Source: Prochlorococcus sp. AG-347-K18 (GTDB lineage: Bacteria > Cyanobacteriota > Cyanobacteriia > PCC-6307 > Cyanobiaceae). Taken from it: DNA of 64,000 nt. Location: NCBI GenBank assembly GCA_003281365.1, contig QCCF01000002.1, positions 62,001 to 126,000 of the forward strand, in the 5' to 3' direction. The translations under genes were made by a program, and so were the position numbers. Below the pieces are notes generated by a model. It saw nothing but the letters and a program-made list of their open reading frames with translations, ran no database searches and had not been told where the DNA came from. Position 1 is the stretch's first letter, and each line of letters starts with the position of its first letter. Of the stretch, positions 42,310 through 60,063 are shown in pieces.

Positions 42310-45276
42310 ATGGAATCAATTCGACAGATTAAGAATAATAATGTGGATCTGATAAGTAACAATGATCCTCTTGATAAAAATCGTCTTTTGATAGAAGATC
42401 TGTGGGAATCGGTACTCAGAGAAGAATGTCCAGATGATCAAGCAGACAGATTGATACAGCTTAAAGAATTAAGTTATTCAAAACAAATCGATGGAGAAAG
42501 TTCAAAAACTTTTAAAAAGGAAATAGTTGACATTGTAAATTCTATGGATTTAGCAGAATCCATAGCAGCAGCAAGGGCTTTTTCATTGTATTTTCAACTC
42601 GTGAATATTTTAGAACAGAGAGTTGAGGAAGATAGATATATTCAAAGCTTTACCAATAAGAATGTTCAAAAATCTCCTGATAATCTTGATCCTTTTGCCC
42701 CAGCATTGGCAAGGCAAAATGCACCAGTAACTTTCAGAGAACTTTTTTACAGACTGAGGAAATTAAACGTACCACCAGGTAAGTTGGAGGCCTTATTACA
42801 AGAAATGGATATTCGTTTGGTTTTTACTGCACATCCGACAGAGATAGTAAGACATACGATTAGACATAAACAAACTAGAGTCGCAAATTTGTTAAAAAAA
42901 ATACAGATAGAAAAGTTCTTAACAAAAGAAGAAAAAAATTCTCTAAAAACCCAATTAAAAGAGGAAGTAAGACTCTGGTGGAGAACCGATGAATTGCATC
43001 AATTTAAACCTTCAGTTTTAGACGAAGTAGATTATGCCTTGCATTATTTTCAGCAAGTGTTATTCAATGCAATGCCTCAATTGAGAGGCAGGATTGCTGA
43101 AGCTCTTACAGACAACTATCCAGATGTTCAAATGCCCTCTGAATCTTTTTGTAACTTCGGTTCTTGGGTCGGCTCAGATAGAGATGGAAATCCATCTGTT
43201 ACTCCAGAGATAACATGGAGAACTGCATGCTACCAAAGGCAGTTGATGTTGGAAAGATATATTGTTGCAACATCTAATCTAAGAGATCAATTAAGTGTCT
43301 CAATGCAATGGAGTCAAGTGAGTTCTTCTCTATTAGAGTCCTTGGAAACAGATAGGGTCAAGTTTCCAGAAATCTACGAAGCTAGGGCTACAAGATATAG
43401 ATCTGAACCTTACAGATTGAAGTTGAGTTATATTTTAGAAAAATTAAGGTTAACACAAGATAGGAATAATTTATTAGCAGATAGTGGATGGAAATTTGAT
43501 TTAGAGGGAGAAATGGATACTAAAAATATAGATAAAGCTGAAAACTTATATTACAAATCAGTAAATGAATTTACGTATGATCTTGAACTTATTAAAAATA
43601 GCCTTATTAGCACGGATTTAAATTGTGAGGCAGTAAATAACTTACTTACGCAGGTTCATATTTTTGGATTTTCTTTAGCAAGCTTAGATATTCGTCAAGA
43701 AAGCACAAGGCATAGTGATGCTATACAAGAGCTTACAAATTATCTTGATTTGTCAGTGCTATATGACCAAATGTCTGAGGAAGAGAAAATTAAATGGCTA
43801 GTAGAAGAATTAAATACAAAAAGACCTTTAATTCCCTCTGACGTTACTTGGACAAAAACTACAGAAGAAACTTTTTCAGTTTTTAAAATGGTAAAGAGAC
43901 TGCAGCAAGAGTTTGGAAGTCGTATTTGTCATTCTTATGTAATTTCAATGAGTCATAGTGCTTCAGATTTGCTTGAAGTTATTTTACTTGCTAAAGAAAT
44001 GGGTCTTCTTGATCAAAAGTCACAAAAGTCAAAATTATTAGTTGTTCCACTTTTTGAAACTGTTGAAGACCTTAAAAGAGCTCCAGAAGTAATGGAAAAG
44101 TTGTTTAAGTTAGATTTTTACAGATCTTTATTACCTAAAGTAGGAGAATCTTTCAAACCTCTTCAGGAATTAATGCTGGGATACTCCGATAGCAATAAAG
44201 ATTCAGGGTTTGTCTCTAGTAATTGGGAAATTCACAGAGCCCAAATAGCTCTTCAAAATCTCGCAAGTAGAAATAATATCTTGCTAAGACTTTTTCATGG
44301 AAGAGGCGGTTCTGTAGGTAGAGGGGGGGGACCTGCTTATCAGGCAATATTGGCTCAACCAAGCGGTACTCTAAAAGGTCGAATAAAAATAACAGAACAA
44401 GGTGAAGTTTTAGCTTCAAAATATAGTCTTCCAGAACTGGCTTTATATAATTTAGAAACTGTTACCACAGCTGTCATTCAGAATAGTTTAGTAAATAATA
44501 GGCTTGATGCTACTCCAGAATGGAACCAATTAATGTCTAGGTTGGCTGAAACATCAAGGACTCATTACAGAAAATTAGTGCATGAGAATCCTGATTTGTT
44601 AAATTTCTTTCAAGAAGTAACACCAATTGAAGAAATAAGTAAATTGCAGATATCTAGCAGGCCTGCTAGAAGAAAAAAAGGTGCTAAAGATTTGTCAAGT
44701 TTAAGAGCTATACCTTGGGTATTTGGATGGACACAAAGTAGATTTCTTTTGCCGAGTTGGTTTGGTGTCGGGACTGCACTCTCATCTGAATTAAATACTG
44801 ACCCACAACAAATTGAATTATTAAGAGTTCTTCATCAAAGATGGCCTTTTTTTAGGATGCTTATATCTAAAGTAGAAATGACATTATCTAAGGTGGATTT
44901 GGAAGTTGCTAAGTATTATGTTGACACTCTTGGTAGTTTAGAAAATAAAGATTCTTTTGATGATATTTTTGAAGTAATTTCTAAAGAATATAATCTTACA
45001 AAATCTTTAATTCTGGAAATTACTGGTAAAAATAAGCTTCTTGAATCTGATAGAGACTTAAGATCCTCTGTAAGCTTGAGAAATAAAACTATAATTCCAT
45101 TGGGATTTTTACAGGTTTCACTGTTGAGAAGACTTAGAGACCAAACAAGACACCCTCCAATAAGCGAATTTATTGATAGAGATGAATCCAGACGAGCTTA
45201 TAGTAGAAGTGAACTATTAAGAGGCGCACTCTTAACTATTAATGGAATTGCTGCTGGAATGAGAAATACTGGTTGA
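42310..45276 (+). CDS. ppc: Phosphoenolpyruvate carboxylase
   Basis: PEP carboxylase fixes bicarbonate onto PEP to give oxaloacetate, the anaplerotic entry to the incomplete TCA pathway. The 988-residue protein has the catalytic His block [44 protein letters not shown] and [15 protein letters not shown], and the C-terminal MRNTG ending shared by PEPCs. A run of eight Gs in the glycine-rich loop is read in the correct frame here. Confidence 0.98.
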
Positions 45277-58574: not shown

Positions 58575-59582
58575 TTATTTAAATTCGCTCACTTTCCATG
58601 GCTCGAGAAATTTCTTAGCTTTTTTGATTGCAAAAGCTATTCTTTCAGGATCCTCATAGAGTCTCTTGTTATTTTTATGAGCAACTTCAATAAGTGGTTG
58701 CATAATTTTTCTTGCATAACTTCCAAATGCTATTCCATCTGGCAGATTATTAGACTTCAAAAATCCATGAGTTTTTTCATTTGTTCCTCCTGCCAACTGA
58801 ATTAACCCTGGCGGAAGATCTGAACCGATTTTTTCAAATAACTTAACTGTGTCTTTGCTTGTATTTCGAGAGAGATCGCCAGACATTGGCCTTCCATCTA
58901 GCTGCCAAATTAATGGAATATTAAGTTCATCAAGAATCTCATATCTTTCCCAAAGAGCTTTCAAAAGATCTCGGGGCTCTTGCGATTTTACGATCGATTG
59001 ATTTAATCCACAACTGATAGATATCTTATCCAATTTTGTCTCAGAACTTTTAAGGATATTTACAACTTTTGTAAAAGAATTTATACGATTTATATCTGTA
59101 TGAATCTCTACTGCATCAGGTTTTATTTTTTGAAGTGTTGTTGCTAAGTTATCTTTTGACAAATTATATTCATATTCACTTATTAAATTTAGGGGACAAC
59201 TATTTAAACATCTTCCACACCCATAACATTTATTTTCTTTGATTCCATAATTATCAATTGCAAAAGTTGGGCATACTTTTTCGCATGGCCGTGGACAATA
59301 CGGAGGGCATTTTGTTGGATCAAATTTTGCTTTACGAAAGTGGATATCATCACCATCACTAATGCTTATCATTAATCCGGGAGAGTTTTTATAGACTTCT
59401 TCCGCCCACTTGATCCCTTTTTTTGCGGCATGAACTATAGATTCTTCAGCGGCAACATCTATGTAATCAACGCCAGCTGCAGTATAAATTGCACATAAAT
59501 CTTCAATAGCAACAATATCTTCATTACTGGCGCCACAAATTAATTTAATCCATGTATTTTTTGTATTTTTAGTTTCAGGCAA
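58575..59582 (-). CDS. ldpA: Light-dependent period protein LdpA (iron-sulfur, clock input)
   Basis: LdpA is a cyanobacterial iron-sulfur protein that senses redox state and adjusts circadian period in Synechococcus. The 335-residue protein has two cysteine clusters: C92, C96, C100, C104 (C-X3-C-X3-C-X3-CP) and C119, C122, C125, C129 (C-X2-C-X2-C-X3-CP). The N-terminal GASNEDIVAIEDLCAIYTAAGVDYIDVAA is typical. It starts 9 bp after the restored end of ndhN, so the two are one transcript. Confidence 0.93.
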   Translation of the reverse strand: MPETKNTKNTWIKLICGASNEDIVAIEDLCAIYTAAGVDYIDVAAEESIVHAAKKGIKWAEEVYKNSPGLMISISDGDDIHFRKAKFDPTKCPPYCPRPCEKVCPTFAIDNYGIKENKCYGCGRCLNSCPLNLISEYEYNLSKDNLATTLQKIKPDAVEIHTDINRINSFTKVVNILKSSETKLDKISISCGLNQSIVKSQEPRDLLKALWERYEILDELNIPLIWQLDGRPMSGDLSRNTSKDTVKLFEKIGSDLPPGLIQLAGGTNEKTHGFLKSNNLPDGIAFGSYARKIMQPLIEVAHKNNKRLYEDPERIAFAIKKAKKFLEPWKVSEFK

Positions 59583-59591
59583 ATAATTTAA

Positions 59592-60063
59592 CTAAAATTC
59601 ATCCAAAATATAATCACTTAATGTCTTCCATTCAAGTTTTCTTGCCCCCCCCCATTTCTATAACAATTTTTAATTTATTATCTTGAGTACAAATCTCTAT
59701 TAGGCTCTCTAACTCAGATTGAGATAATACTTGACCTTCTAATAACCACAGTAATTTATTTTTATCATTGTCATTAAATAACTCAGAAGCTTGTGGGACA
59801 ACTTGTTGCACTTCACCAAGCGCTCCGTTTCTGCCAACGCTTTGATGACCAAGGTGAGGTGGTCTCACACCATGTAATCTTAGCAGGAAGATTTCTGGAT
59901 CTCCAAGCCCTCGTGCTGAGGTTATAAATGTTTTAAAGCCCTTAGCCCTCATTCTTCTCAAAAGACGAGTTTCATAACCACCTTCAAGAGGGGCGAAAAG
60001 TGCAAGACATTTATTCGTTTTTAAATCATTATGAAACTTTTTCCCCGTGAGCAGTAATGCCAT
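59592..60063 (-). CDS. ndhN: NDH-1 subunit N (NdhN), apparently frameshifted at a nine-base G run
   Basis: NdhN belongs to the hydrophilic arm of the cyanobacterial NDH-1 complex (cyclic electron flow, respiration). The first 138 residues ([53 protein letters not shown]) are normal. The annotated frame then stops after EMGGGKKT at 59632 (143 aa). Reading eight Gs instead of nine (C9 at 59645-59653 on the plus strand) continues as [18 protein letters not shown] and stops at 59592, giving 156 aa, which fits my recollection of the family end. I give the coordinates for the restored gene. Confidence 0.9.

Follow-up and report, generated by a model that had tools for sequence, protein, structure and literature searches.

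The window, by which we mean the whole 64,000-nucleotide stretch of DNA that was analysed, carries the gene ndhN on its minus strand, followed in the direction of transcription by ldpA (Table 1). The first-pass annotation of this DNA had described ndhN as frameshifted by one extra G in a nine-G run, and nine consecutive Cs are indeed found on the plus strand at 59645–59653, forming a G9 tract within the gene on the minus strand. The minus-strand codons at the tract are ATG GGG GGG GGC AAG AAA ACT TGA, where the TGA at 59634–59632 is the stop codon of the assembled gene; the early end after EMGGGKKT given in the first-pass annotation is therefore that of the open reading frame at 59632–60063, of 143 residues. 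When the tract is read as eight Gs instead, ndhN ends with a TAG stop at 59594–59592 and encodes an NdhN of 156 residues. This stop had been placed correctly at 59592 in the first-pass annotation, although the C-terminal peptide written for the continuation lacked its last three residues, DEF.

Table 1. Features at the ndhN–ldpA locus (positions in the window).
Feature	Position	Strand	Description
ndhN as sequenced, nine Gs	59632..60063	-	143-aa truncated NdhN, ending EMGGGKKT; Pfam NdhN PF11909
G9 tract, site of the extra base	59645..59653	-	sole G9 in the genome assembly
Out-of-frame remainder of ndhN	59592..59644	-	CA of an Ala codon, 16 residues, TAG stop
ldpA, next gene, TTG start	58575..59582	-	Pfam LdpA match of the ORF

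The TTG start codon of ldpA occupies 59582–59580 and lies 9 nt from the eight-G stop, which is the gap that had been claimed, and 49 nt from the nine-G stop. TTG is also found at the corresponding place of ldpA in the 10 relatives compared over this stretch. In the interval 59583–59597, past the eight-G stop, the genome is 2 nt shorter than three relatives, G002, L161 and L011 (GAATTTTAG compared to GAATTTTAAAG), and because of this its eight-G stop is TAG where theirs is TAA.

Both readings of the gene belong to the NdhN family. The nine-G protein matches the Pfam profile (PF11909) with 183 bits over profile positions 1–144 of 153, and the eight-G reading with 196.4 bits over positions 1–152, the curated cut-off being 25 bits. 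Three of the four solved NdhN chains found (6hum_N, 9grx_N and 7wfg_N) align through the C-terminus of NdhN, to query residue 150 or 152, while the fourth, 7eu3_N, aligns only up to residue 118. The eight-G reading thus resembles NdhN of the cyanobacterial and chloroplast NDH-1 complexes in sequence, in profile and in its aligned C-terminus, whereas the assembled form has GKKT in place of the last 17 residues.

NdhN is described as a structural subunit of the peripheral arm of NDH-1 (PMC7021789), and in the cyanobacterial complex it contacts NdhS, NdhV and NdhI (PMC6992706). In Synechocystis, NDH-1 has been reported to be destabilised when NdhN is absent (PMC12038448). The subunits searched for besides NdhN, namely NdhM, NdhO and the 49-kDa-type subunit (NdhH), all have a match in the genome that is free of internal stops. 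There is therefore no sign of the NDH-1 complex being lost, and a loss of NDH-1 at large was rejected as an explanation for the broken frame. The genome contains a single NdhN match, and the proposal that ndhN has become dispensable through a second copy was rejected on this ground.

The site was compared across 266 genomes of the genus, one per species, 204 of which have an NdhN match. A site pattern in which the gap may vary from 5 to 10 nt matches 190 of the 266; a gap of 8–10 nt occurs in one genome, the present one, and a gap of 4–6 nt in none of the 266. As one of the 190 matches is longer and none is shorter, the other 189 genomes are in frame, and a single out-of-frame tract length occurs among the 190. 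Neither the 14 genomes that have NdhN but lack the site pattern nor the 62 in which NdhN has no match are informative on this point. The common form of the site in the genus is ATG GGN GGT TCN, encoding Gly-Gly-Ser.

The first-pass annotation had proposed a search for relatives whose NdhN ends at the same short position, or whose NdhN lacks the tail. Among 103 distinct ndhN sequences from relatives, none stops at the short position and all keep the tail, although M, GG and KLEW were demanded by the search pattern and only the residues past W were free. The G run is six long in 81 of these sequences, three in 20, seven in one and eight in one, and all are in frame. Counted from Met137, the stop follows after 22 residues in 97 relatives, after 20 in five and after 25 in one. 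The commonest C-terminal residues spell MGGSRKLEWKPLSNYILDEF, and L148, Y151 and I152, which the pattern left free, are invariant in the 103 relatives. Agreement with this consensus, and with the C-terminus of G002, upholds the view that the alternative frame restores a real protein.

An alternative takes the short NdhN to be stable and functional in this species, or the tract to work as an on/off switch that is already established; it could draw on the retention of most of the NdhN profile (183 of 196.4 bits) after the loss of 17 residues. It fits badly with the 103 relatives that all read past the short position, with the restriction of any length difference to one genome among 190 and with the three solved chains that align through the tail. 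A natural short NdhN was rejected on the evidence of the relatives, and we regard the short form or switch as extremely improbable.

One relative offers a precursor for the tract. G002 reads ATG GGG GGG GCA AGG, an eight-G alanine form whose C-terminus and stop position are the same as those of the eight-G reading here; since the form is exact and the end point shared, G8 is likely to have been the immediate ancestor of the G9. The DNA identity of G002 to the present genome is 88.3% over 4.2 kb. By name, the best 80 of the 177 relatives are 79 Prochlorococcus and one member of the Synechococcaceae (L102), which places the genome, that of an ocean cyanobacterium, with Prochlorococcus. The nearest among these 80 are L161 and L067 (a single contig occurring under both labels, named MIT 9107), with 89.7% DNA identity over 4.2 kb. 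A midpoint-rooted tree over 3.6 kb was built from 98 sequences with enough flank (the present genome included, loci L002–L030 left out); in it the genome groups with L161, L067 and G002 with a support of 0.69, and then with L039 (0.945). L161 has the serine form at the site; G8 may either be common to the present genome and G002 or have arisen twice.

Selection on ndhN was assessed against eight relatives that we picked, with the 139 codons up to Met-Gly-Gly treated apart from the 16-codon tail. The codons upstream of the tract are under strong purifying selection, dN being 0.031–0.043, dS 0.56–0.76 and dN/dS 0.047–0.076. The tail shows 1–3 nonsynonymous and 0–3 synonymous differences from the same relatives and no stop; where dN/dS could be computed for it, the values of 0.10–0.55 stand on too few synonymous differences to carry meaning. 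With synonymous divergence this large, an old lesion would be expected to let the tail decay. An old pseudogene was rejected, as neither relaxed selection nor decay was seen, and the earlier judgement that the defect is recent or technical is supported. The undecayed tail speaks for recency, for error or for continued translation of the tail, and does not separate the three. Identity of ndhN to its counterpart in G022 is ordinary at 91.5%, 30th from the lowest among 63 ORFs with a median of 92.1%.

Taken together, the comparisons make it almost certain that the ninth G is a one-base lengthening of an eight that is private to this genome, whatever its cause. What is seen is most probably an ordinary homopolymer frameshift in one genome, the extra G having been miscounted or having arisen by fresh slippage, and not the mark of a new biological mechanism. 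In the reading that we favour, the true or immediately ancestral ndhN would have contained eight Gs and encoded a normal NdhN of 156 residues, and the ninth G would belong to this assembly alone, at the genome's longest G run. A technical miscount, introduced in sequencing, amplification or the consensus, is somewhat more probable than any biological feature as the origin of that base. This choice between error and true mutation is a judgement, because the same data fit both and the sequence by itself cannot separate them. Error is preferred to true slippage because the lost residues are almost invariant and the loss of NdhN is reported to be destabilising.

The quality of the assembly elsewhere bears directly on the technical reading. 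In comparisons with G019, G001, G043 and G022, ndhN alone among the genes of the window has its homology divided between frames. The ORFs were called mechanically, from the first ATG and with a length of at least 60 aa; 89, 80, 81 and 79 of them have a homologue in the four genomes respectively, and 2, 2, 1 and 1 are split, the second split hit in two comparisons being an antisense ORF over the place of ndhN. A run-extension estimate puts the expectation per window at about 0.013 for C-runs and 0.024 for G-runs of nine or more, so that the tract exceeds what chance would give. G tracts of eight or more occur eight times in the genome assembly, and the one in ndhN alone reaches nine; six of the other seven fall inside open frames, and the last is in the rpoA leader. 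One G8 run, at 44323–44330 of the window, falls in an intact ORF of 988 aa for PEP carboxylase (Pfam PEPcase, full length) and provides an internal control for the counting of G runs. The window also contains 14 A9 or T9 runs and no further split gene. With the other G8 tracts in open frames and the A9 and T9 runs free of splits, nothing points to systematic homopolymer error, and a generally error-prone assembly was rejected. This cleanness weakens the technical reading but does not remove it.

The main competitor of a miscount is a true and recent replication-slippage mutation, which would have lengthened G8 to G9 in the cell or culture that was sequenced. Such a mutation would be new or slightly deleterious, would not have reached fixation in the lineage, and would have moved the stop to its present place ahead of ldpA. 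Two T-to-G changes from the common GGT TCA form would make the tract slip-prone, and in a laboratory drift experiment both homopolymer indels and their tolerance are described as increasing with run length (PMC3812077). A similar case was met once in 30 loci with tracts of G9 or longer, the apparent gene split at the G10 of L128. The near-invariance of the lost residues in the relatives tells against it, as does the reported destabilisation of NDH-1 without NdhN (PMC12038448), which together imply that a growing population should seldom contain cells with such a mutation. We consider a true mutation a substantial possibility, short of an even chance. If the nine Gs are real, the early stop might affect ldpA, provided that the two genes are translationally coupled.

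Long G tracts as such are widespread in the genus: 186 of the 266 genomes, the present one included, have at least one G9, so the length of the tract alone is unremarkable. The 30 loci with a tract of G9 or longer were taken one per genome and sorted by eye. Thirteen lie in open frames, 11 in the rpoA leader and one, L128, in an apparent gene split; no clear gene was seen at the remaining five (L120, L129, L132, L135 and L149). In genome G015, a gene resembling FAD-binding oxidases appears to be split by the G10 tract of L128, around positions 1500–1519 of that locus. The upstream ORF of this gene matches Pfam FAD_binding_4, and the next frame encodes a plausible C-terminal part of 100 aa (GGEILWHLEAVSQQGSPRL...), which has no Pfam match when taken alone. 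L128 is possibly a second, putative case of the ndhN kind in the genus.

The rpoA leader harbours a homopolymer of its own. In the interval between the gene for ribosomal protein S11 and rpoA (Pfam matches for S11 and RpoA of the present genome), a run of 8 to 16 Cs, mostly followed by a run of As, ends 23–31 nt short of the GTG start codon of rpoA. Here the run is locus L115, at C2:133932-133939 on the contig and outside the window; in relatives it accounts for the 11 leader loci mentioned above (L121, L125, L127, L131, L134, L141, L142, L143, L145, L146 and L147). This length-variable homopolymer might be a regulatory element or a slippage site, for either of which it is a candidate.

The first-pass annotation had also raised the possibility of a slippage site giving rise to both lengths. 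In this model the nine Gs are real, and either RNA polymerase loses one G or the ribosome slips by +1 on GGG GGG GGC, giving a putative full-length fraction with which the defect is tolerated. The tail has not decayed, a tRNA on GGG could, from the sequence, re-pair one base on, and G and C repeats, not only those of A, are described as being bypassed to functional protein in one experimental system (PMC3812077). However, recency or error would leave an undecayed tail just as well, and A and T runs are named as the usual slippage sites in bacteria (PMC3711429, PMC6260861); the slippage described in a chloroplast gene likewise concerns an A run (PMC8254509). At this site, G9 is absent from the other 189 genomes that match the pattern. 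Many shuffled sequences fold as well as the RNA 3' of the tract, which has a minimum free energy of -11.2 kcal/mol compared to a mean of -8.78 (sd 2.5) for the shuffles (z -0.97; 31 of 200 at least as stable). These results lend no support to the slippage site. As the G9 is not conserved, programmed recoding at the tract is unlikely, and a conserved recoding site was rejected. Real Gs with slippage and a tolerated defect are improbable, and that the cell makes enough full-length NdhN by a putative poly-G bypass, in transcription or translation, is more doubtful still. Among the matches listed in a literature search on frameshift, slippage, phase variation and poly-G in Prochlorococcus and cyanobacteria, no title concerned ndhN or cyanobacterial G runs.

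A survey of genes would wrongly flag ndhN of this genome as truncated, and as a matter of quality control the NdhN of this assembly should not be taken for a natural short form. Were the nine Gs real and bypassed, the locus would be a naturally occurring case in which to test poly-G slippage in a cyanobacterium, in a gene of photosynthetic electron transport.

Buchnera and Blochmannia are endosymbionts with genes that are rescued by slippage. Such endosymbiont genes and dnaX of Thermus thermophilus, as described (PMC8254509, PMC3711429), resemble ndhN in that a conserved tail in a different frame accompanies a homopolymer. The runs in those cases are of A or T, and are conserved or experimentally tested, whereas that of ndhN consists of Gs and is private to one genome. 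The poly-G phase-variable loci described in Neisseria meningitidis (PMC5084427) share with ndhN a G tract capable of slipping within a coding sequence; ndhN, in contrast, encodes a subunit of an energy complex, and its 103 distinct relatives are all in frame.
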